This document shows, in pieces, positions 4,281-14,902 of a DNA stretch of 32,811 nt. The position numbers were made by a program, and so were the translations under genes. The notes beneath the pieces were generated by a model that was not told the origin of the DNA, searched no databases, and saw only the letters and a list, made by a program, of their open reading frames with translations. Position 1 is the stretch's first letter. Each line of letters starts with the position of its first letter. Source of the DNA: a bacterium (GTDB lineage: Bacteria > Arandabacterota > Arandabacteria > Arandabacterales > Arandabacteraceae); assembly GCA_029933125.1 (NCBI GenBank), contig JAOZOU010000014.1, positions 1 through 32,811 of the forward strand, in the 5' to 3' direction.

Positions 4281-4316
4281 TTCTTACTCTCCATAATGAA
4301 CCTTGCCTAAATGCGA

Positions 4317-4346
4317 AGCGTAGCAAAGCCTTTGCAGCAGCGTCAA
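4317..4346 (-). promoter_or_regulatory. candidate sigma-70-type promoter of treY-malQ
   Basis: On the minus strand TTGACG (4346-4341) is followed by an 18-nt spacer and TACGCT (4322-4317). The start point would be near 4310, about 30 nt before the treY ATG. The -35 is good but the -10 is weak (3 of 6). It lies back-to-back with the promoter of the divergent operon. Confidence 0.35.
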
Positions 4347-4356
4347 GGCGATGAGC

Positions 4357-4385
4357 TTGACCTTAAGATGAGACTCGGGGATAAT
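4357..4385 (+). promoter_or_regulatory. sigma-70-type promoter of the molybdoenzyme operon
   Basis: TTGACC (4357-4362), a 17-nt spacer and GATAAT (4380-4385) form a five-of-six plus five-of-six match at ideal spacing. The predicted start near 4392 leaves a 36-nt leader that ends in a GGAGG site (4417-4421) before the GTG at 4428. This placement also argues against any start codon upstream of 4428. Confidence 0.6.
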
Positions 4386-4427
4386 AAGGGTGCAGCTGGC
4401 CAATCTCAGTCCTGCTGGAGGTCATGT

Positions 4428-6395
4428 GTGAGGCAAGTCATCACCTCTTGTACTCAGGATTGTCCCGATACATGCTCCATAGTAGCAGAGGTGAGTGGGG
4501 GTAGGGTCATAAAGATAAGGGGAAATCCTGACTGTGAAATAACACGTGGCTTTCTCTGCCGTAAGTCACGTAATTTCCTTCCTCGCCTGCACAGCAAGGA
4601 GCGAGTTCTCAAGCCGCGCCTTCGCGATGGGGCCTCATGGAGGGAGATCTCGTGGGAGAGAGCACTTGATATTGTGGCAGCAAAGCTCGAAGCCTCCCTC
4701 AAGAGGTACGGGCCTCTGAGCATTTACTATTTTCGGGATGCGGGCTCGATTGCCGCACTAAAAATGGTAAATGAGCGCTTCTTCAATCTTCTTGGTGGTG
4801 GCACATTCGCCTCAGGCACTCTTTGTGGGGGTGCAGGGATTGCAGGGCAAACACGCGATTTTGGATTACGTACTAGTCATGATCCGCATGATCTTCTCAA
4901 TGCCAAGGCAATCCTTGTATGGGGAAGAAATCCCGCCTGGACGAATGTGCATCTTGTACCAATTCTCCGTGAGGCTCGCAAGGGTGGCTGCTATTGTGTT
5001 CTCATAGACCCTCTGCCGACAGCAACCTCAAAACTTGTCGACTGGCACCTAGCTCCCTCGCCAGGTTCAGATGCTTACCTTGCAATAGGGCTTATGAAGG
5101 TTATACTTGATGAGGATCTGGCCGACACCGATTTCGTTGAGAAGCACACACACAACTTCGATGCCCTGAAAAAAGAGCTTGAAGCCTTCGACCTTAAAGT
5201 CATATCTGATGAAACTGGTCTAAGTCTTCGGGAAATAAACAAGTTGGCTCGTATCTATGCTGAATCCAAGCCAGCTGCAATCGTTGGAGGGTGGGGATTC
5301 CAGCGGCGTCGTAATGGAGCTCAGGTCTATCGCCTCCTGGATGCGCTTGCTGCTCTGTGCGGAAATGTGGGCGTGCCGGGTGGTGGGGTCAGCCATGGAA
5401 TGGACGAGACTCGCTGGTTCGAATCCCGTAAGGTCCTTTTGAGGGTGGGTACAGCAAGGCGTGAGATCCCTAAGCCCCAGACGTGGAAGGGAATTATGAC
5501 TTGTGGGGATCCTCCAATAGAAGTGGCTTTCATTACAGCCGCAAATCCCGTTTGCCAGTGTCCCAATTCCAATCTTGCTCCAAGGGCAATCGCTGGCATT
5601 GACTTTGTTATCGTTGCAGAAATGTTTATGACAGATACGGCTATGCTGGCAGATCTTGTTTTGCCCACCACTCACTTCCTCCAGGAGACCGATCTTGTAG
5701 GTAGCTATTGGCACAACTATGTAATGCCTGTAAATGTTGCGCAAGCCAGATTGGGGGAAGAGAAGACCGACCTTGAGATTTTTGCTCTTTTGGCGAAGCG
5801 AATGGGCCTCGAAAAAGAGTTTCCCAACGATGCAATGTTTTTTCTAGAAATTCTTGCCGAACCCCTCAAGCAGTATGGTTTCAAGCTTTCCCAACTTATG
5901 GAGGGGCCTGTAAGGCCACCCACGCATGAAGTTCCCTTTTCGGATAAAAGGTTCCCGACCCCTAGCGGCAGGATTGAGCTTATCTCTGAGATCGTCATAC
6001 CTTCGACAAAGAGATCCAGCGCCTACCCCTATTACCTTCTTTCTCCTCATCCCGCTAGTCAGACGCATTCTCAAGCACGCAGTATCCCGTCGAAGGGGTA
6101 TCCTCAAGCAGAGGTATCACCGAGAGTTGCTCAAACGCTTGGTGTTGACAGGGGGTCTCTAATTAAGGTAAAGACTCCGCAGGGGGAATTGATATGTCAT
6201 GTCGAAGTTGTGCCCGCCCTAAGGGACGACGTTGTGGTCATACATGAGGGAACTTGGGAGATGATGGGTGGGAGTGTGAACAGATTGACATCTGACGAGC
6301 TCAGTGACGAAGGTCTGTGTGCCACATACAACGATTTAGCCTGCAGTCTCTCCAAAGTCGAACCATCCGCTAAATCTGTAAGAGGTTCAAGGTGA
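4428..6395 (+). CDS. molybdopterin oxidoreductase (DMSO reductase superfamily, formate-dehydrogenase-like)
   Basis: This is a 655-aa catalytic subunit of the Mo/W-bis-pterin family. The N terminus carries a 4Fe-4S site C8-x3-C12-x3-C16-x27-C44 (from CTQDCPDTC to GFLCRKS). A likely Mo/W ligand is Cys133 in SGTLCGGAG. Cofactor-binding stretches include ILVWGRNPAW, AIVGGWGFQRRR, FITAANPVCQCPN and DLVLPTTHFLQETD, and residues about 540-650 form the dinucleotide-binding C-terminal domain. I use GTG 4428 because GGAGG ends 6 nt before it and a promoter lies just upstream; the longer frame from ATG 4311 adds 39 residues without family character. There is no twin-arginine signal, so it should be cytoplasmic. 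The substrate is not readable from sequence: formate, thiosulfate/polysulfide or an organic acceptor are all possible. The only partner encoded next to it is the ferredoxin/ASKHA protein, 15 nt downstream. Confidence 0.85.
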   Translation: MRQVITSCTQDCPDTCSIVAEVSGGRVIKIRGNPDCEITRGFLCRKSRNFLPRLHSKERVLKPRLRDGASWREISWERALDIVAAKLEASLKRYGPLSIYYFRDAGSIAALKMVNERFFNLLGGGTFASGTLCGGAGIAGQTRDFGLRTSHDPHDLLNAKAILVWGRNPAWTNVHLVPILREARKGGCYCVLIDPLPTATSKLVDWHLAPSPGSDAYLAIGLMKVILDEDLADTDFVEKHTHNFDALKKELEAFDLKVISDETGLSLREINKLARIYAESKPAAIVGGWGFQRRRNGAQVYRLLDALAALCGNVGVPGGGVSHGMDETRWFESRKVLLRVGTARREIPKPQTWKGIMTCGDPPIEVAFITAANPVCQCPNSNLAPRAIAGIDFVIVAEMFMTDTAMLADLVLPTTHFLQETDLVGSYWHNYVMPVNVAQARLGEEKTDLEIFALLAKRMGLEKEFPNDAMFFLEILAEPLKQYGFKLSQLMEGPVRPPTHEVPFSDKRFPTPSGRIELISEIVIPSTKRSSAYPYYLLSPHPASQTHSQARSIPSKGYPQAEVSPRVAQTLGVDRGSLIKVKTPQGELICHVEVVPALRDDVVVIHEGTWEMMGGSVNRLTSDELSDEGLCATYNDLACSLSKVEPSAKSVRGSR

Positions 6396-6410
6396 TTGAG
6401 GAGGCAAGGT

Positions 6411-8234
6411 TTGGCTAAACAATCCATAAGAGTTGTATTCATGCCTGATTCACGGGAGGTTTGGGTCGTCTCTGGTTCCACAATTCGCGATGCCCTATTA
6501 GCAGCGTCCATCCCCATCTCAATGCCATGTGGCGGCCACGGCCGCTGCGGCAGATGCCTCGTGCAGGTGAGCGGGGGGGTGACTGCACCTAGTGAGGCTG
6601 AGCTTCGATTGCTTGGTACCCATTCGGGCAATATGCGCCTTGCTTGCATGGCGAGACTCGAGGGTGACGCAGAGGTCGTCATACCAAGGGCCACACGCGT
6701 AACCGTTCAGAAGGTGAGCACCTCAGGCAGGTCGAGCGGGAGATATCACTTCGATCCTGGGATCGTGAAGGTGTATCTTGGCAAGTGGCGCTCGCCAAGA
6801 ACGTGGAAGAGACTTGCCACCTATGGAATTGGTGTTGAGGATGTAACAATAGGGATGGTCAACCCGACTCTCGTTGATGCCAAGCTACGTGAGGATCATG
6901 AGTGGCAGCTTGGTCTCCACAGCGATGCCACGGTTGTAGCTTCACCCGAAGGAATTATCGGATTTGAAGCGGGCAACACGACTGATGAGTGTTACGGCAT
7001 CGCAGTGGACATTGGAACTAACACGGTTGTCTGCTCTATGGTAGATCTTCTCAGTGGTTGTGAAATAGGTGTCACATCTGCAATCAACCCTCAGGTAGCT
7101 CATGGTGACGATGTCATCTCGAGAATCAGATTCTCAAAGAAGCCTGGTGGACTCAATCTACTCAGGGATGAGATTGTTCATCTCATTAAAGGACTTACCG
7201 CTGAGCTGGTGAGCAGGCTCAATATCGATCCTAGCCGTGTCTATCTTTGTAGTGCAGTCGGCAATACGGCGATGCAACACATTCTCATCGGAATCTCCCC
7301 CGTGGATCTGGGACGTGCACCTTATAGATCGAAGCTAACTTTGGGTGTTGATATGCCAGCTGAGCAAGCTGGACTTCTTGGGCACCAGCGTTGCAGGCTC
7401 ATCATGCCGCCGCCAATCGGTGGTTTTGTCGGAAGTGATATTGTTGCTATGATTGTCTCTCAGGCGCTGCATAGAAGGCGGGTTCCTGCAGTTGCAATTG
7501 ACATTGGCACAAATGGTGAGATCGTCTTGGTAACCGGTGATAGGATTTTAGCTTGCTCGACAGCTGCCGGACCAGCTTTTGAAGGAGAAAGAATAAGTTC
7601 AGGAGTAAGAGCTGTTGATGGTGCTATTGAGGACGTAAGCATAAAACGCGGTGATGTGGTTCTCAAGACAATCGGTAAAGGTCTGCCCGTTGGAGTCTGT
7701 GGATCGGGGTTGATCGCTGCAATAGCCGAGCTCCTGAGGGTAGGTGTTATTGAACCTAGCGGACGGATCAGGAGACCGGGTGAGATTGCGAATGCCAAGC
7801 TTGCTCAGCGCGTACGCGAGAATGACACAGGCAGAGAGTTTGTGCTCTTGAAAGAACCCATGATAAGCGTGAGGCAGGGGGACGTCAGGGAAGTTCAACT
7901 GGGCAAGGCTGCAATCTGTGCAGGTATAAAGGTGCTTGCATCCATTGCTGGCATAGACGTGGACGAAATAAGGACAGCCCTCGTTGCGGGGAGCTTTGGC
8001 TCGTCTCTCAGGGCTGCATGCTTTAAGCGCCTCGGATTTCTACCCCAAAGCTTCAGTGGCAGGATAAGGTCAATTGGTAATTCCGCTATTGAGGGAGCCA
8101 AGATGTTTCTTGTATCGAGGCAAGCAAGGGATGAAGCATTCTCCCTTGCAGAGAGATGTGAACATGTTGAGCTTTTCTCCCATGCAACTTTCAAAGAAGA
8201 ATTTTACGCAAGCATTGGCTTCCCAGCTCCCTGA
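6411..8234 (+). CDS. [2Fe-2S] ferredoxin / ASKHA-domain protein (RACo-like, DUF4445 family)
   Basis: This 607-aa protein has an N-terminal [2Fe-2S] ferredoxin domain with C40-x5-C46-x2-C49 (PCGGHGRCGRCLV) and a fourth Cys in LACMARL, then a linker and a C-terminal ASKHA ATPase-like domain. The domain shows AVDIGTNTVVCSM, CSAVGNTAMQHI, AIDIGTNGEIVLV, GVCGSGLIA and VAGSFGSSLRA. Family members such as RACo reduce inactive Co(II) corrinoid proteins in an ATP-dependent step; many relatives have no known partner. No corrinoid protein or methyltransferase is in the window. I start at TTG 6411 because GAGGAGG (6398-6404) sits 6 nt upstream; the earlier TTG at 6396 has no site. Co-transcription with the molybdoenzyme suggests an electron-transfer or activation role for it, which is inference. 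Confidence 0.85.
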   Translation: MAKQSIRVVFMPDSREVWVVSGSTIRDALLAASIPISMPCGGHGRCGRCLVQVSGGVTAPSEAELRLLGTHSGNMRLACMARLEGDAEVVIPRATRVTVQKVSTSGRSSGRYHFDPGIVKVYLGKWRSPRTWKRLATYGIGVEDVTIGMVNPTLVDAKLREDHEWQLGLHSDATVVASPEGIIGFEAGNTTDECYGIAVDIGTNTVVCSMVDLLSGCEIGVTSAINPQVAHGDDVISRIRFSKKPGGLNLLRDEIVHLIKGLTAELVSRLNIDPSRVYLCSAVGNTAMQHILIGISPVDLGRAPYRSKLTLGVDMPAEQAGLLGHQRCRLIMPPPIGGFVGSDIVAMIVSQALHRRRVPAVAIDIGTNGEIVLVTGDRILACSTAAGPAFEGERISSGVRAVDGAIEDVSIKRGDVVLKTIGKGLPVGVCGSGLIAAIAELLRVGVIEPSGRIRRPGEIANAKLAQRVRENDTGREFVLLKEPMISVRQGDVREVQLGKAAICAGIKVLASIAGIDVDEIRTALVAGSFGSSLRAACFKRLGFLPQSFSGRIRSIGNSAIEGAKMFLVSRQARDEAFSLAERCEHVELFSHATFKEEFYASIGFPAP

Positions 8235-8407: not shown

Positions 8408-8424
8408 CTGGCACGGTGCTTGCA
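8408..8424 (+). promoter_or_regulatory. sigma-54 (RpoN) -24/-12 promoter
   Basis: The stretch CTGGCACGGTGCTTGCA matches the RpoN consensus YTGGCACGRNNNTTGCW at every fixed position. GG lies at 8410-8411 and GC at 8422-8423, the required 10-nt gap. Transcription would start near 8435, about 240 nt before pduL. An RpoN promoter needs an enhancer-binding AAA+ activator, which is not encoded in the window. I infer that it drives the BMC operon, since all genes from 8676 to 14902 follow on the same strand. Confidence 0.85.
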
Positions 8425-8449
8425 CATAAGAGGTGGTGACAACTGAATA

Positions 8450-8584
8450 GCAAGGCCAAATGGAGTTCCCTGCTATGCTCGTGATTTGCCAGGTCGTGGG
8501 CTGATCTCCAGGAAAACTAAACCTCGAGTTTCACGTTTACCTCGCACACGACATTGCAGTGGGGAACTCCATTTGGCTTTTTGC
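8450..8584 (+). promoter_or_regulatory. long-stem leader RNA structure ending in a T-run
   Basis: A perfect 16-bp inverted repeat pairs 8455-8470 (GCCAAATGGAGTTCCC) with 8562-8577. It is extended outward by GCAAG/TTTTTGC pairing and inward by CTGC/GCAG (8470-8473 with 8556-8559). Inside are two competing partners for CACG 8547-8550 (CGTG 8480-8483, or GTCGTG 8493-8498 using 8547-8552) and an apical hairpin 8512-8532. Five T (8578-8582) follow the stem directly. It lies just downstream of the sigma-54 start point, so it would be in the operon's 5' leader. It could be an attenuator, a ligand- or protein-sensing leader, a separate small RNA or a MITE-like repeat. I recognise no known riboswitch consensus. 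Confidence 0.6.
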
Positions 8585-8638: not shown

Positions 8639-8675
8639 CATGATTGCCTTTGCTAAAATTGCCCAAGGATGGAAA

Positions 8676-9329
8676 ATGGTTACCCAATATGACATCGCAA
8701 AGCTAAGCCAGGAGGTCGCCAGGCGTGTAATCTCCCGAATGACTCCTGGAATTGGGGATCGTATTCTGGTTCCTATAGGTGTTTCAGCGCGTCATATCCA
8801 CCTGACAAGGGAAGTGCTTGAAGGTCTCTTCGGTAAGGGCTACGAGCTCAAGCCTCTGCGAAAGCTGAGTCAACCCGGGGAATTTGCTTCAAACGAGACG
8901 GTGACCATCGTTGGACCGCGTGGGGCAATAGAGAAAGTCAGACTACTTGGCCCACTTCGCACTTTCACTCAAGTTGAGCTGGCAAGGAGTGATGGCCTCA
9001 AACTCGGACTTGACCTTCCTGTCAAAAGAACAGGTGATCTTGCCGGGACCCCGGGAATAACACTCGTTGGGCCACAGGGAACTGTTGTTCTCTCCGAGGG
9101 TGCGATAAGAGCAACCCGCCACATTCATATGAGTCCGGATGATGCTTCACGTTTCGGACTTCAGGATGGCCAAATCGTAAAAGCTCGAATCGAAGGCGTA
9201 AGAGCTGTTGTGCTTGAGAATGTTCTGGTGCGAGTTAGCCCCCGTTTTGTACTTGACTTTCACATTGACACTGATGATGCTAACGCTGCTGGAGTGGAAA
9301 CGGGTTGCTTTGCTGAGGTGCTTGTGTAG
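8676..9329 (+). CDS. pduL: phosphate propanoyltransferase, PduL type, BMC cargo
   Basis: PduL exchanges CoA for phosphate on acyl-CoA, giving acyl phosphate and regenerating CoA inside the shell. The 217-aa protein has two beta-barrel repeats. Metal-binding histidines are visible as SARHIHL (H40, H42), RHIHM (H149, H151) and DFHIDTDDANA (H196). Residues 3-20 (TQYDIAKLSQEVARRVIS) form an amphipathic helix typical of an encapsulation peptide. I start at ATG 8676, 6 nt after AAGGA (8665-8669). An in-frame ATG at 8640 would add 12 residues but lies before or at the predicted start of the nearer promoter. It is the first gene of the BMC operon, 19 nt before the first shell gene. No acetate/propionate kinase is nearby to use the acyl phosphate. 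Confidence 0.95.
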   Translation: MVTQYDIAKLSQEVARRVISRMTPGIGDRILVPIGVSARHIHLTREVLEGLFGKGYELKPLRKLSQPGEFASNETVTIVGPRGAIEKVRLLGPLRTFTQVELARSDGLKLGLDLPVKRTGDLAGTPGITLVGPQGTVVLSEGAIRATRHIHMSPDDASRFGLQDGQIVKARIEGVRAVVLENVLVRVSPRFVLDFHIDTDDANAAGVETGCFAEVLV

Positions 9330-9348
9330 GCTATGGAGGTGATCGAGT

Positions 9349-9615
9349 TTGCCTGAAGCACTGGGTAAGATAGAGACCAAGGGTTTTGTTGCTGCAGTCG
9401 AGGCAGCTGATGCTATGGTCAAAGCGGCTAAGGTTGCCCTCACAAGGTATGAAAGAACTGGCGGAGGGCTGGTCGCTGTCTTTGTGCGTGGAGATGTTGG
9501 GGCTGTGAGGGCTGCTGTTGACGCTGGAGCAAGAGCTGCACAAAGGGTTGGTGAGCTGGTGAGTGCTCATGTCATACCAAGACCCGATTCGTCGCTTGAG
9601 GACATAATGCTTTAG
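9349..9615 (+). CDS. BMC-H hexameric shell protein, copy 1
   Basis: This 88-aa single-BMC-domain protein of the PduA/EutM/CcmK type tiles the facets of the shell as hexamers. Diagnostic stretches are [31 protein letters not shown], the pore loop TGGGL, then [17 protein letters not shown] and [12 protein letters not shown]. The pore loop is all glycine where PduA has GSG, which may change what passes. It starts at TTG 9349, 4 nt after a full anti-SD match GGAGGTGATC (9335-9344), so strong translation is expected as for an abundant shell protein. It is a tandem paralogue of the next gene. Confidence 0.96.
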
Positions 9616-9664
9616 GTCTATGCTTTAGATCTTGAAAAAGTCATAAAGAAGGAGGTCGAGCAAC

Positions 9665-9982
9665 GTGGCAGAAGGTGTTGAGGGAATCTACAGAGAGGCT
9701 CTGGGATTGATTGAAACTCGGGGCTTTGTTGCCATGGTGGAAGCCTCAGATGCAATGGTGAAGGCAGCCAAGGTGACACTGGTGGGATATGAAAAAATAG
9801 GTGGAGGCTACGTTACAGCCATAGTTCGCGGCGATGTTGCTGCTGTTAAGGCTGCTACAGATGCTGGTGGCGCTGCGGCAAGCAAGGTGGGTGAGCTCGT
9901 CTCAGTTCATGTAATACCGAGACCCCATCCCAACCTTGAGGACGTTCTCCCGATCGGCAGACTCCAGAAGACCAAGAAGTAG
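9665..9982 (+). CDS. BMC-H hexameric shell protein, copy 2
   Basis: This 105-aa BMC-H protein is closely similar to the preceding one ([50 protein letters not shown]). It has an extra eight residues at the N terminus and a basic C-terminal tail ending QKTKK. Its pore loop is IGGGY rather than TGGGL, so mixed hexamers or two pore types are possible. GTG 9665 follows AAGGAGGTC with about 8 nt spacing. A 49-nt gap separates it from copy 1, the second-largest gap inside the operon's shell/cargo section. Confidence 0.96.
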
Positions 9983-10002
9983 ACAATACGGGAGGCTGAA
10001 AA

Positions 10003-10296
10003 TTGATAATTGGTGAAGTAGTCGGCACCGTTGTTGCGACGCGTAAGGAAGAACGTCTAACGGGGCTCAAATTCCAGATCGTAAAGGTCATAAATGTTGA
10101 TCTTGAGCCAACCGGTCAATTCCTGATTGCCGCTGATGCTGTTGGTGCGGGCTATGGAGAAGTGGTTCTCTGCTCACAGGGAAGCTCTGCACGCCTTACA
10201 GCCAAGACAAAGGATTGCCCGGTGGACGCTGTCATAATGGGTATAGTTGATACAATCGAGATCCAAGGTAAGGTCGTTTTCGAGAAATATGCTTGA
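10003..10296 (+). CDS. BMC-P pentameric vertex protein (EutN/CcmL family), copy 1
   Basis: Pentamers of this family cap the vertices of the polyhedral shell. The 97-aa protein starts MIIGEVVGTVVATRKEERLTG and shows VDLEPTGQFLIAADAVGAG, GEVVLCSQGSSAR, PVDAVIMGIVDTIEI. TTG 10003 has GGGAGG 7 nt upstream. Compared with the two other BMC-P copies in the operon it has a longer C-terminal end (EIQGKVVFEKYA), and its last 8 nt overlap the start of the aldehyde dehydrogenase gene, so the two are translationally coupled. Confidence 0.95.
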   Translation: MIIGEVVGTVVATRKEERLTGLKFQIVKVINVDLEPTGQFLIAADAVGAGYGEVVLCSQGSSARLTAKTKDCPVDAVIMGIVDTIEIQGKVVFEKYA

Positions 10297-11704
10297 TGAA
10301 AAGGTTATAAGCGCAATAGTTGAGGAGGTGCTTAGGAAGCTAAAAGTTGATGTATCGCAAGCAGCTCAAGCCACACGTGGCCTTGGCGTTTTCGCAAGTG
10401 TGGATGAGGCTGTTGAGGGAGCACGCAAAGCGCAGCGCGACTTTCAAGATATTTCGATTGAGCGAAGGAAGAAAATTATCGATGCAATGCGCAAGGTCTC
10501 GATCGAGCATGCGAGTGAGCTCTCGCATCTTGCCATTGAGGAAACAGGGCTAGGGCGTTATGAGGATAAGGTCAACAAGAATCTGCTCGCGGCAACTCGC
10601 ACGCCCGGTATTGAGGATCTCCAGCCCGAAGCCGTATCAGGTGATCATGGTCTGACAATTGTTGAGCGAGCACCCTATGGTGTGATCTGCTCTATCACCC
10701 CCTCAACCAATCCATCCGAGACCGTGATCAACAACGGGATTGGTATGATTGCTGGAGGCAATTCTGTGGTTTTCAATCCTCACCCTTCAGCTCGCAAGAT
10801 AACCCAGAGAACGATTGATTTGCTAAACTCTGCAATTGTGAGCCAAGGCGGCCCACCCAACTTGCTAACATGTGTGGCTGAGCCTTCGATCGAGACAGCA
10901 CAACAAGCCATGCGCCATCAAGACACGAGACTGGTTGTTGTGACAGGCGGAGGAGCTGTTGTCAAGGAAGCTCTGAATTCCGGCAAAAAGGTTATTGCGG
11001 CGGGTCCAGGCAACCCACCAGTTGTTGTTGATGAGACTGCTGACCTTCCTACTGCAGCCAAGCACATCGTTGACGGAGCCTCTCTTGATAACAACATCGT
11101 CTGCGTATGCGAAAAGGAGGTTTTGGCTGTCGATAAGATAGTCGACCAGCTCAAGGCAAGGATGCTCGAGCACGGTGCAGTGGAGATAAAAGGTCGGGAC
11201 ATTGACCGCCTTGAAGCTCTTGTCATCAAGGAAAACAGAGGGCCATCGAAGCATGCTGTTACTCAGAGGGCGTATGTGGGGAAAGACGCAGGGATTCTCT
11301 TGAGAGAAATAGGTATCACAGGTCACGATCAGGCAAGACTTATCATTTGTGAAACGCCACTCAGTCATCCATTTGTCTGGACTGAACTCCTCATGCCTAT
11401 TCTTCCAATAGTAAGAATAGGTGATGTTGATCAGGGCATCGAACTTGCCAAGAAGGTTGAGCATGGTTTTGGGCATACTGCTGTTATGCACTCTACCAAC
11501 ATAACCAAGCTGTCGAAGATGGCAAGGTTAATAAATACAACTATCTTCGTAAAGAATGGTCCTGCCTATGCAGGTTTGGGGTTTGGCGGCGAGGGCTATA
11601 CGAGTTTCACAATAGCGAGCCCGACGGGGGAAGGGCTCACATCTGCCCGCACCTTTACAAGAATGCGGCGATGTGTGCTTGTTGACTATTTCAGGATCAT
11701 CTGA
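10289..11704 (+). CDS. CoA-acylating aldehyde dehydrogenase (PduP/EutE type), BMC cargo
   Basis: The enzyme oxidises an aldehyde with NAD+ and CoA to acyl-CoA and NADH. The 471-aa protein has the acylating ALDH landmarks VERAPYGVICSITPSTNP, NSVVFNPHPSA, VVVTGGGAVVKEAL, AAGPGNPPVVVDETAD and the catalytic block SLDNNIVCVCEKE. Cys272 aligns with the nucleophile of DNNxxCxAEKE; Cys274 is an extra nearby cysteine. The N terminus LDEKVISAIVEEVLRKLKV is an amphipathic helix followed by a short linker, a typical encapsulation peptide. ATG 10289 overlaps the preceding BMC-P gene by 8 nt; an in-frame upstream ATG at 10247 would sit deep in that gene. The true aldehyde cannot be read directly; the aldolase in the operon suggests lactaldehyde or a similar C2-C3 aldehyde. 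Confidence 0.95.
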   Translation: MLDEKVISAIVEEVLRKLKVDVSQAAQATRGLGVFASVDEAVEGARKAQRDFQDISIERRKKIIDAMRKVSIEHASELSHLAIEETGLGRYEDKVNKNLLAATRTPGIEDLQPEAVSGDHGLTIVERAPYGVICSITPSTNPSETVINNGIGMIAGGNSVVFNPHPSARKITQRTIDLLNSAIVSQGGPPNLLTCVAEPSIETAQQAMRHQDTRLVVVTGGGAVVKEALNSGKKVIAAGPGNPPVVVDETADLPTAAKHIVDGASLDNNIVCVCEKEVLAVDKIVDQLKARMLEHGAVEIKGRDIDRLEALVIKENRGPSKHAVTQRAYVGKDAGILLREIGITGHDQARLIICETPLSHPFVWTELLMPILPIVRIGDVDQGIELAKKVEHGFGHTAVMHSTNITKLSKMARLINTTIFVKNGPAYAGLGFGGEGYTSFTIASPTGEGLTSARTFTRMRRCVLVDYFRII

Positions 11705-11715
11705 GGTCACTTCAA

Positions 11716-13041
11716 TTGATAGCAACTTTCCCAGCATCGAAAAGTGAAATAGTCAATCGGATATATGAAGCTGGTGTGGTTGGGGCTGGCGGAGCAGGTT
11801 TCCCTACCCACATTAAGGCAGACTCACGAGCTGAGATAGTTATCGCCAACGCCTGTGAATGTGAACCTCTTATTCGATCGGACAGGTTTGTGCTTGAGGC
11901 TTTTCATGAAGAAGTTCTTGAGGGCTTACACCTCATGATGCTCGCCACTGGTTCGAGCAAGGGTTTGGTCGCTCTACGGGAAGGCTCGAGCATTCCAGAT
12001 CTTGAGAAAAGATTGGCTAGCTCGCCGGCGCTTGATATTGTGAGAGTCCCCAATACCTATCCGGCAGGGGATGAACATATCCTGGTCTATGAGGCGACAG
12101 GCCGAATCATCCCTCAGGCAGGAATCCCGCTTGATGTTGGTGTGGTCGTTTCCAATGTAAATACGCTTCTGAATGTTTCAAGAGCTGTGCACGGTAGGCC
12201 TGTGACATCAAGAATTGTCTCGGTTTGTGGCGATATCCCAAAGCCATGTGTCACAGAGGTTCCTATTGGAACCTCTGTGGGCTTTGTCCTCGAGGCTACA
12301 GGGAATCAGGTTGATCTTAAGGAGAAGGCAATCCTTCTTTCGGGTGTGATGATGGGGGAGATCTGTGAGGACCTGACAAGAACCGTTGATAAGAGGATAG
12401 GTGCAATAATAGTTTTGCCCAGAAGCAATCGCGTTGTCATATCTAAGTCACTATCGGTTGAAACAATGGTGAGAAGGGCTGCTTCGGTATGCTGCCAGTG
12501 CCAGCTCTGCACGGAGATATGCCCGCGCCATCTTATGGGCCATGCTATATCTCCACATAAGATAATGCGCGCTGTCGCATGGATGATTACATCGAGTGAA
12601 GATCTTGCTGGTGCTCTCCTATGTTCCGGCTGTGGCCTTTGCGGTAGCTATGTCTGTCCGATGGCTCTATCGCCTGACAGGATAAGCTACATGGTTAGAA
12701 GAATGCTTGCGGAGAGGGGAATAAGAGCTGAGGCAGTTCCGTCAGAGGTGAGACCACTTAGGGCTTGGAGACTTGTTCCTCATGAGCGCATCCTCAATCG
12801 AACAGGTGTTGGAATCTATGAGCGAGATCTCAACTTTGTCCCAATTTCACCTCCAGGTCTTGTCCGCATCCCTTTGCTTCAGCATAGTGGGGTTCCCGCA
12901 AGCCCTAAGGTTGCTATTGGTCGGCATGTCTCAAAAGGAGATTTAATTGGTGAACCTCAAGGTCTTGGTGCAAGAGTTCATGCTTCAATTGATGGGATTG
13001 TGAAGGCAATTGATGACTTTGTCACGATCGAGTCGAAATGA
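11716..13041 (+). CDS. pduS: PduS-like (RnfC-type) flavo/Fe-S oxidoreductase of the BMC
   Basis: PduS is an NADH-oxidising flavin/Fe-S protein; in Pdu compartments it is linked to cobalamin reduction. This 441-aa protein has the N-terminal nucleotide/FMN-binding loop GVVGAGGAGFPTHIKA, the stretch NACECEPL, an SLBB-type middle part, and two 4Fe-4S motifs: C259-x2-C262-x2-C265-x3-C269-P and C303-x2-C306-x2-C309-x4-C314-P. A C-terminal barrel ends VHASIDGIVKAIDDFVTIE. TTG 11716 is preceded by GAGGT about 8 nt upstream. Its stop overlaps the ATG of the BMC-T gene by 4 nt, so the two are probably made in fixed ratio. There is no B12-dependent enzyme in the operon, so I infer NADH re-oxidation rather than corrinoid reduction. 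Confidence 0.9.
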   Translation: MIATFPASKSEIVNRIYEAGVVGAGGAGFPTHIKADSRAEIVIANACECEPLIRSDRFVLEAFHEEVLEGLHLMMLATGSSKGLVALREGSSIPDLEKRLASSPALDIVRVPNTYPAGDEHILVYEATGRIIPQAGIPLDVGVVVSNVNTLLNVSRAVHGRPVTSRIVSVCGDIPKPCVTEVPIGTSVGFVLEATGNQVDLKEKAILLSGVMMGEICEDLTRTVDKRIGAIIVLPRSNRVVISKSLSVETMVRRAASVCCQCQLCTEICPRHLMGHAISPHKIMRAVAWMITSSEDLAGALLCSGCGLCGSYVCPMALSPDRISYMVRRMLAERGIRAEAVPSEVRPLRAWRLVPHERILNRTGVGIYERDLNFVPISPPGLVRIPLLQHSGVPASPKVAIGRHVSKGDLIGEPQGLGARVHASIDGIVKAIDDFVTIESK

Positions 13042-13592
13042 ATAAAGTTGAGGCGATAGGGCTTGTTGAGCTCAACAGCATAGCATCAGGAATACGGACA
13101 GCTGATGAGATGGTGAAGGTGGCGCCCGTGATTCTGATTGCTGCGATGACAATTTGTCCGGGCAAGTATATCTCGCTCGTTGGGGGTGAAGTGAGTGCTG
13201 TGGAATCATCCGTAAAGCGAGGTAAGGAGGTTGGCGGAGAATGGGTTGTTGACAGTCTCTTCATTCCCAATATTCACTCCGATGTCTTTCCTGCAATCAG
13301 AGGAACCGCTACGATAGAGCATGTCAAGGCCGTTGGGGTAATCGAGACATTTTCAGTAGCTGCAGCTATAATAGCAGGAGACGGTGCTGCCAAAGCTGCC
13401 AAGGTACGCCTGATGGAGCTCAGACTTGCTCAGGGTCTTGCTGGCAAGTCGTTTGTTACAATGACAGGTGACGTCAGCGACGTAATAGCTGGTGTCGATG
13501 CCGGGGTGACACTTATTCGCGAGAGTGGTATGCTGGTTAAGTCAGTCGTCATACCGAGACCTCACGATGATTTGAGGGAGAAATTGCTTTAG
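13038..13592 (+). CDS. pduT: PduT-like tandem BMC-T shell protein with Fe-S pore motif
   Basis: This 184-aa protein has two BMC domains in tandem and should form a trimer. The first half is VEAIGLVELNSIASGIRTAD, then MTICPGKYISLVGGEVSAV; the second is VGVIETFSVAAAIIAGDGAAKAA, then MTGDVSDVIAGVDAG and VVIPRPHDDL. Cys40 in TICPGK sits where PduT has the cysteine that binds a 4Fe-4S cluster at the three-fold pore (established for PduT). It is therefore likely a redox port in the shell, not a plain metabolite pore. It overlaps the PduS-like gene by 4 nt and lies one base before the next BMC-P gene. PduS-PduT contact is known in the Pdu system. Confidence 0.93.
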   Translation: MNKVEAIGLVELNSIASGIRTADEMVKVAPVILIAAMTICPGKYISLVGGEVSAVESSVKRGKEVGGEWVVDSLFIPNIHSDVFPAIRGTATIEHVKAVGVIETFSVAAAIIAGDGAAKAAKVRLMELRLAQGLAGKSFVTMTGDVSDVIAGVDAGVTLIRESGMLVKSVVIPRPHDDLREKLL

Positions 13593-13593
13593 A

Positions 13594-13857
13594 ATGCATA
13601 TTGGCAAAGTGATAGGTACTGTTGTCGCAACAAGAAAAATAGCGGAGCTCAGAGGGGCAAAGTTGCTTGTTGTGCAACCGCTTTCACCCGATCTTGAACC
13701 AAGTGGAAAACCCTTAGTCGCAATTGACAATGTCATGGCTGGGCCAGGTGATATCGTCTATTTTATTCGTGGCCGCGAGGCAGCTCATACACGTGATGAG
13801 AAGTTCAACCCAGCGGATGCTGCCATAATGGGCATAGTTGACAGAGTTGATCTCTAA
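13594..13857 (+). CDS. BMC-P pentameric vertex protein, copy 2
   Basis: This 87-aa EutN/CcmL-family protein reads MHIGKVIGTVVATRKIAELR, then LSPDLEPSGKPLVAIDNVMAG and PADAAIMGIVDRVDL. It starts one base after the BMC-T stop and its stop shares a base with the next ATG (TAATG). No obvious ribosome site precedes it apart from GAGGGAGAAA in the end of the BMC-T gene, so it probably relies on coupling. It is the most similar of the three copies to copy 1 in its N-terminal half (IGxVxGTVVATRK). Confidence 0.95.
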   Translation: MHIGKVIGTVVATRKIAELRGAKLLVVQPLSPDLEPSGKPLVAIDNVMAGPGDIVYFIRGREAAHTRDEKFNPADAAIMGIVDRVDL

Positions 13858-14141
13858 TGTACATTGGAAAGGTCATAGGTGATGTGGTCTCGACTATAAA
13901 GTACGAGACCCTGAAGACCCATAAGATTCTCATCGTCCAGCCAATCGATCCCGATATGAAGGAGAGGGGGGAGCCTATACTTGCTCTCGATATGGTTGAT
14001 GCAGGTAAGGGTGATGTCGTTCTCATAGTCGATCAGGGAACAGCTGCAAGAACTGTGCTATCAATGGAATATCCGACCGTGCGTACTTTGATACTTGGCA
14101 TCGTGGATAGAATCGACCTCAGACAGGAGACATCCAGGTGA
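13857..14141 (+). CDS. BMC-P pentameric vertex protein, copy 3
   Basis: This 94-aa vertex protein reads MYIGKVIGDVVSTIKYETLK, IDPDMKERGEPILALDMVDA, GDVVLIVDQGTAARTVL and LILGIVDRIDL. It is the most divergent copy: the usual TVVATRK is DVVSTIK. It overlaps both neighbours, by 1 nt upstream and 4 nt downstream (GTGA). Three BMC-P paralogues in one locus are also seen in the planctomycete/verrucomicrobial fucose-rhamnose compartments. Confidence 0.95.
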   Translation: MYIGKVIGDVVSTIKYETLKTHKILIVQPIDPDMKERGEPILALDMVDAGKGDVVLIVDQGTAARTVLSMEYPTVRTLILGIVDRIDLRQETSR

Positions 14142-14902
14142 AGACCTTCTCCTTTGAGGAAGCTTCAGACGCAATCCTCGAGATAGGAAAACGAATGTAT
14201 GAGAAAGGGCTTGTTGTTGCAACAGATGGAAATATAAGTGTGCGACTTTCTGCGGATAGGTTGCTTGTTACACCGAGCGGAATGAATAAGGGTATGCTTA
14301 CACGGGGTGATCTTGTTGTCACAAATATGAAGGGTGAAAGGATAAGCGGAAGGCGTGAGCCAACTTCAGAGATAAAGATGCACATAAAGGCTTATGAAGT
14401 TAGAGCCGATATTGGGGCAGTTGTACATGCCCATCCACCATATTCCACAGCTTTTGCCGTTGCTGCAATTCCCCTTGAAGAATGCATTCTACCTGAGATT
14501 ATTGTCTCAATAGGTTCTGTACCAATTGCGGAATATGCAACACCTTCCACTGAGGAAATGCCCCGCAGCATAGAAAATGTTGTTAAGGGTTGTGATGGTT
14601 TCCTCCTCAGAAATCACGGTGTTATGACGGTGGGTAAGAATCTCCTTGAAGCCTATCATAAGCTCGAGATGGTTGAGCATCTTGCAAAGATAACACTGCT
14701 CACAAGGCATCTGGGTGGCCCCAAACCATTGAGTTCCGAGGATGTGCGGAAGCTCTACACATTGAGAAAGGAGACTGACGGAGCTCCATATCCTGGATGC
14801 AGGATGCCGAGTAGCCAGCCAGGAAGTCTTGAGGAGCGTGCGGAGCTTATCAAATTGATTGCTGAAGAGGTTAGCAAAATACTCAAGGGTGGACAAAAAT
14901 GA
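14138..14902 (+). CDS. class II aldolase (fuculose/rhamnulose-1-phosphate type) with C-terminal encapsulation peptide
   Basis: Class II aldolases of this family cleave fuculose-1-P or rhamnulose-1-P to L-lactaldehyde and DHAP with a Zn ion. The 254-aa protein shows TDGNISVRL, VTPSGMNKG, PTSEIKMH (catalytic Glu78), the Zn ligands VVHAHPPYS (H97, H99) and LRNHG (H160). It is about 35-40 residues longer than usual: after a linker CRMPSSQPGS comes an amphipathic helix (231-250, LEERAELIKLIAEEVSKILK) that resembles the N-terminal helices of PduL and the aldehyde dehydrogenase. I infer that it is targeted to the shell lumen. GTG 14138 overlaps the BMC-P stop by 4 nt. It overlaps proS by 4 nt downstream. 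It is the signature enzyme candidate of this compartment; the sugar phosphate is unproven. Confidence 0.9.
   Translation: MKTFSFEEASDAILEIGKRMYEKGLVVATDGNISVRLSADRLLVTPSGMNKGMLTRGDLVVTNMKGERISGRREPTSEIKMHIKAYEVRADIGAVVHAHPPYSTAFAVAAIPLEECILPEIIVSIGSVPIAEYATPSTEEMPRSIENVVKGCDGFLLRNHGVMTVGKNLLEAYHKLEMVEHLAKITLLTRHLGGPKPLSSEDVRKLYTLRKETDGAPYPGCRMPSSQPGSLEERAELIKLIAEEVSKILKGGQK

Follow-up and report, generated by a model that had tools for sequence, protein, structure and literature searches.

PduS and PduT as a candidate electron exit from the aldolase-type metabolosome of a small bacterial phylum

How is NADH that arises inside a bacterial microcompartment (BMC) reoxidised when the operon encodes an acylating aldehyde dehydrogenase and no alcohol dehydrogenase (ADH)? 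This question is raised by a locus of an uncultured anaerobic bacterium in the window, by which we mean the whole stretch of 32,811 nucleotides that was analysed, a single contig of a 3.23 Mb assembly that is 97% complete. The small phylum is represented in the collection by the genomes of eight species, among which the source genome is labelled G000. An earlier note on this DNA proposed that a PduS-like protein and a BMC-T shell protein together pass electrons from lumenal NADH to an acceptor in the cytosol. Taken as a whole, electron export from lumenal NADH through PduS and PduT is the best explanation we have for the locus, and we regard it as reasonably, though by no means strongly, probable.

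The BMC operon consists of ten genes on the forward strand (8640-14902). They encode, in this order, a PduL phosphotransacylase (8676-9329, with an ORF that also opens at 8640; PF06130, 5.8e-74), two BMC-H shell proteins (9349-9615 and 9665-9982; PF00936, 2e-29 and 7e-30), a BMC-P vertex protein (10003-10296; PF03319, 1e-30), a CoA-acylating aldehyde dehydrogenase (10289-11704; NF011927, 678.9 bits against a cut-off of 403), the PduS-like protein (11716-13041), the BMC-T protein (13038-13592), two further BMC-P vertex proteins (13594-13857 and 13857-14141; PF03319, 7e-29 and 5e-24) and a class II aldolase of the fuculose/rhamnulose-phosphate type (14138-14902; PF00596, 4e-50). All ten genes are found in unchanged order in two other genera of the family (L036 and L037), and the partial operon copies in four further genomes agree with this order. 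Upstream of the operon, at 4311-8234, lie genes for a molybdopterin oxidoreductase and for a corrinoid activator that resembles RACo/AcsV and has a 2Fe-2S domain. The association of the RACo-like gene with the BMC operon is conserved in L036, L037, L038 and L116, and in L037 the oxidoreductase gene is also found nearby.

Three of the enzymes carry helices that resemble encapsulation peptides. In PduL the helix is N-terminal (DIAKLSQEVARRVISRM) and its pattern is conserved in relatives; the aldehyde dehydrogenase, which is the source of NADH, has a putative N-terminal encapsulation peptide (MLDEKVISAIVEEVLRKLK) whose helix is conserved in the phylum; and the aldolase has a C-terminal helix (LIKLIAEEVSKILKGG) with a pattern conserved in L036 and L037. 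These helices suggest that the NADH should arise inside the compartment. The operon holds no gene for an alternative lumenal NADH oxidase, as neither an Fe-ADH nor a Zn-ADH nor a lactate dehydrogenase (LDH) is found among the ten genes. The iron-type ADH (PF00465) is also not found anywhere in the 97% complete G000 genome and is absent from 5 of the 7 relatives, while 48 of the 50 other pair-bearing genomes have it. The earlier statement that there is no ADH is thus correct for the locus but not for the cell, which has a single gene of the Zn-ADH family, far from the operon and without an encapsulation peptide. There are four BMC domains in the whole genome and no BMC-T other than the PduT type, so that no gated pore for the passage of NAD(H) is available. 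These facts on missing NADH sinks favour an electron exit, short of proving it.

The first partner of this exit would be the PduS-like protein (TTG start, 441 aa), a predicted flavoprotein with NADH, FMN and two [4Fe-4S] sites. Its Pfam domains are Complex1_51K (PF01512, 1e-39), Fer4_17 (6.5e-12) and a C-terminal RnfC_N (3e-13). We can confirm the two complete 4Fe-4S motifs claimed for it: both tetracysteine motifs are intact, the first being C259-x2-C262-x2-C265-x3-C269 and the second C303-x2-C306-x2-C309-x4-C314, which has the same spacing as the cysteines mutated in Citrobacter PduS (C309/312/315/320; PMC2982820). The glycine-rich flavin loop, an FMN/NADH motif, is represented by G23, G25, G26, G28, P30 and K34. 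All but one of the 80 aligned PduS rows keep the eight cysteines and the residues of this GxGGxGxPxxxK motif, and the exception is a truncated fragment. The AlphaFold model of the protein (pLDDT 92.4) has Foldseek matches to RnfC. Its barrel-sandwich RnfC_N domain lies at residues 376-437, and this C-terminal position sets PduS apart from true RnfC, in whose solved structure RnfC_N is N-terminal. The RnfC family model gives 572 bits for a true RnfC encoded elsewhere in the genome and a score under the cut-off for the PduS-like protein. No recognisable encapsulation peptide was seen on the PduS-like protein. Within its coding sequence there is a terminator-like inverted repeat of 13 bp with a 4-nt loop (12251-12280; TCACAGAGGTTCC/GGAACCTCTGTGG).

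The second partner is a PduT-type BMC-T of 184 aa with two BMC domains (PF00936), in which the codon of Cys40 lies at 13155-13157. As the earlier note had stated, Cys40 lies within TICPGK(Y), and the motif is identical in C. freundii PduT (3pac). The motif TICPGKY matches the pore motif class C-P/S/A-G-K/R/S-Y/F. In the AlphaFold single-chain model (pLDDT 95.8) Cys40 is found in a loop between strands 32-38 and 44-50, and the best Foldseek matches include 3nwg (TM 0.94), 3n79 and 3pac (TM 0.85). BMC-T is a tandem-BMC-domain protein, predicted from these fold matches to be of the trimer-forming type. Its score against the NCBIfam eut_PduT equivalog is 129 bits, below the cut-off of 250.3, and we therefore describe it as a PduT-type relative and not as an equivalog of the protein defined by that model. 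Variation of Cys40 in orthologous loci had been named beforehand as an observation that would refute the proposal, and it was not seen. The column is cysteine in all 96 aligned BMC-T homologues, taken from Bacillota, Desulfobacterota, Acidobacteriota, Calditrichota, Ignavibacteria, Latescibacterota and others, in loci that were partly chosen by a pattern spanning the cysteine motif, alongside five other patterns. A pore cysteine on its own is no proof of a PduS partner, since the second BMC-T of Desulfoluna-type loci keeps the cysteine and has no PduS. A second BMC-T with the pore cysteine, mostly in TICSGRY or TICSGRF, and without an adjoining PduS of its own was observed in L042 (5700-6242) and in the similar loci L043, L049, L051, L060, L064, L071, L073, L075, L077-L079 and L081.

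The two genes are closely tied to each other. Their 4-nt overlap is real (ATGA) and occurs in all five members of the phylum with both genes assembled, and the pair is found in each BMC operon of the phylum whose pair region is assembled. Across the wider set, sequence upstream of PduT is available for 79 loci; PduS lies 5' of PduT in every one of them, and in 64 the gap is at most 30 nt. The PduS and PduT distances correlate with r = 0.93, the highest value of all the gene pairs tested (0.73-0.82 for the others). Stand-alone satellites consisting of the two genes PduS and PduT are found in 13 genomes of Ignavibacteria, Acidobacteria, Latescibacterota, Verrucomicrobiota and Bacteroidetes (L045, L056, L059, L063, L065, L069, L072, L074, L107, L108, L110, L111 and L112). 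We rejected the idea that satellites are a sign of a role outside BMCs, because all 13 genomes have vertex-protein (EutN/BMC-P) genes elsewhere. The main loci of these genomes encode BMC-P proteins and, in most cases, a class II aldolase, and no ADH was seen in them except for an LDH-like gene in L121. The conserved order, the co-divergence and the satellites together indicate that PduS-PduT behaves as a module.

Does this module simply take the place of an ADH? Among the 35 full-context core loci with the pair, 18 have neither an Fe/Zn-ADH nor an LDH within about 10 kb, but 17 have one. Mutual exclusion of pair and ADH is thus not upheld, and the pair is not simply a substitute for ADH but has value beyond replacing it. 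That about half of the pair-bearing loci also have an ADH fits the strongest of the other explanations, in which the pair does conduct electrons but most NAD+ is regenerated by another route, by exchange of NAD(H) through the shell or through leaky shells, with Rnf or other cytosolic NADH oxidoreductases carrying out the reoxidation. The genome does encode a complete RnfCDGEAB cluster (L117, 8297-18001, followed by HdrC/HdrB/HdrA-like genes) and several NuoF/HydB-like proteins. However, the absence of a gated BMC-T besides the PduT type and the presence of the pair in every assembled operon region of the phylum speak against this route, and we consider it unlikely, although worth keeping in mind.

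Another possibility is that PduS is a cobalamin reductase retained from an ancestral Pdu-type operon and that PduT is a mere anchor. Citrobacter PduS reduces cobalamin (PMC2982820), and the gene for the corrinoid activator lies just upstream of the operon. The SLBB match of the PduS-like protein, however, reaches 16.2 bits where the cut-off is 27, so that the domain appears degenerate, and no B12-dependent enzyme is encoded in the operon, which together weaken a role in corrin reduction. The invariant FeS ligands and pore cysteine are also unexpected for a remnant, so that we judge this explanation to be quite improbable.

In the electron export that we favour, the class II aldolase would cleave a sugar phosphate in the metabolosome to yield a short aldehyde, the acylating aldehyde dehydrogenase would oxidise it to acyl-CoA and thereby produce lumenal NADH, and PduL would convert the acyl-CoA to acyl-phosphate. 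PduT would hold PduS against the inner face of the shell. PduS would oxidise the NADH via FMN and its two [4Fe-4S] clusters and hand single electrons to a [4Fe-4S] cluster bound by three Cys40 residues in the pore of the PduT trimer, from which a cytosolic acceptor would draw them. NADH oxidation by PduS, PduS-PduT binding and the PduT cluster have been published for the Citrobacter/Salmonella proteins (PMC2982820, PMC6325248). For this organism we infer the transfer itself, its outward direction and a cytosolic acceptor, and export may be the main route of NAD+ recycling here. The proposal of the earlier note gains from the conserved ligands, the obligate pairing and co-divergence, the lack of an Fe-ADH and of another BMC-T pore, and the peptide-like helices, and is qualified by the loci that combine the pair with an ADH.

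The direction and the acceptor can be considered in the light of reported potentials, which are -320 mV for NADH, -150 mV for the PduS flavin and +99 mV for the Citrobacter PduT cluster (PMC6325248, PMC2982820). The weakest explanation, an inward flow by which the pair supplies the lumen with reducing power for a reductive step or to keep enzymes reduced, follows a proposal of electron supply to encapsulated activases in glycyl-radical compartments (PMC6325248), but it is very improbable, as the operon encodes no radical enzyme or reductase and these potentials run outward. If the BMC-T cluster of the window has a potential near +99 mV, the exit of electrons from NADH would be downhill, but ferredoxin, Rnf and H2/protons would drop out as acceptors. 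Rnf is thus disfavoured as an acceptor by the value reported for PduT. We also rejected O2 respiration as the outlet, because searches of the eight phylum genomes gave neither a haem-copper oxidase (COX1) nor a cytochrome bd. The genome has a weak [FeFe]-hydrogenase-domain match (98 bits). No high-potential acceptor is obvious in the genome, and this counts against the export reading.

The idea of an electron exit is prior art. Parsons 2010 proposed that electrons leave the compartment through PduS-PduT (PMC2982820), Axen 2014 described ADH-less loci with PduS, and also a class II aldolase locus of Latescibacteria that has PduS (PMC4207490), Ferlez 2019 set out the PduS-PduT complex and its potentials (PMC6325248), and Burrichter 2021 proposed export of NADH electrons via PduS and PduT as the NAD+ route of an ADH-less locus (PMC8667426). 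Physiological evidence was provided by Zeng 2021, whose work on Listeria linked BMCs for ethanolamine to extracellular electron transfer. The locus of the window adds an unusually clean case to a known type of system.

Several known systems share features with it. The PduS-PduT of the Pdu metabolosome (Citrobacter, Salmonella) has the same domains, cysteine spacings and TICPGK pore motif, and 3pac is the structure matched with TM 0.85. The window operon differs in having no diol dehydratase, PduO or PduQ alcohol dehydrogenase, in its weak SLBB match and in a BMC-T that scores under the eut_PduT cut-off. With the SPU-like BMC of Latescibacteria (PMC4207490) it shares the class II aldolase, aldehyde dehydrogenase, PduL and PduS, no alcohol dehydrogenase being among the genes given there, but the window operon lacks acetate kinase and, by Pfam, has no RpiB-like protein among its ten genes. 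The PVM metabolosome of Planctomycetes/Verrucomicrobia likewise has the aldehyde dehydrogenase and a class II aldolase as signature enzyme. In PVM loci a lactate/malate dehydrogenase-like gene is thought to regenerate NAD+, whereas no such gene is found in L036, L037 or the window operon, which has PduS and PduT. Among the SPU metabolosomes (DeoC and RpiB) with PduS, for example L039 and those of Atribacteria, L039 has no ADH in the locus, as is the case here, and the identities to L039 are the highest or nearly so outside the phylum (aldehyde dehydrogenase 58%, PduL 53%, BMC-T 58%). The SPU aldolase is of a different class, and the aldehyde is therefore probably different too. Finally, the isethionate BMC of Bilophila wadsworthia (PMC8667426) has no ADH gene in its cluster according to the authors, who proposed PduS/PduT electron export and found that PduS co-fractionates with BMCs, but its signature enzyme is a glycyl-radical isethionate lyase.

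Between the RACo-like gene and pduL lie two further elements on the forward strand. The first is a putative sigma-54-type promoter with -24/-12 elements (8409-8424, TGGCACGGTGCTTGCA), an exact match to the consensus, in which TGGCA and TGCA are invariant in all seven aligned phylum genomes while the flanks diverge. The second is a conserved structured RNA of 149 nt (8436-8584), a candidate sRNA or leader, which 7 of the 8 phylum genomes carry once each, ahead of pduL, with 78-93% DNA identity. Its fold has z = -6.84 against shuffles, compensatory changes occur in 8 of 43 pairs (0 of 500 shuffles were as high) and the core GCCAGGTCGTGGGCTGATCTCC is invariant. It has no match in Rfam 15, and a search with the RNA model gave no copy in the other BMC loci, the satellite loci or the Rnf region (about 1.07 Mb in all), the sole matches being in the window itself. 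In L037 an ORF lies between the RNA element and pduL, so that the RNA may be a small RNA in its own right rather than a leader. From its conservation, we suggest that this undescribed element is a candidate novel small RNA or cis-regulator.

Many candidate loci for electron export across the metabolosome shell also have, or may have, another sink for NADH. The locus described here is notable for being nearly minimal and common to most of the phylum. Its ten genes include a single BMC-T and a single PduS, three enzymes with peptide-like tags and no ADH, in a genome that lacks the iron-type ADH, and could offer a near-minimal system for settling the question of export by reconstitution. We tentatively suggest, with rather more doubt than confidence, that the phylum has an organelle without an internal alcohol branch, in which all lumenal NADH leaves as electrons via a PduS-PduT gate to a cytosolic acceptor. 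If true, the redox logic of this metabolosome would be respiratory and not fermentative, with the oxidation of a sugar-phosphate-derived aldehyde coupled to an acceptor in the cytosol.
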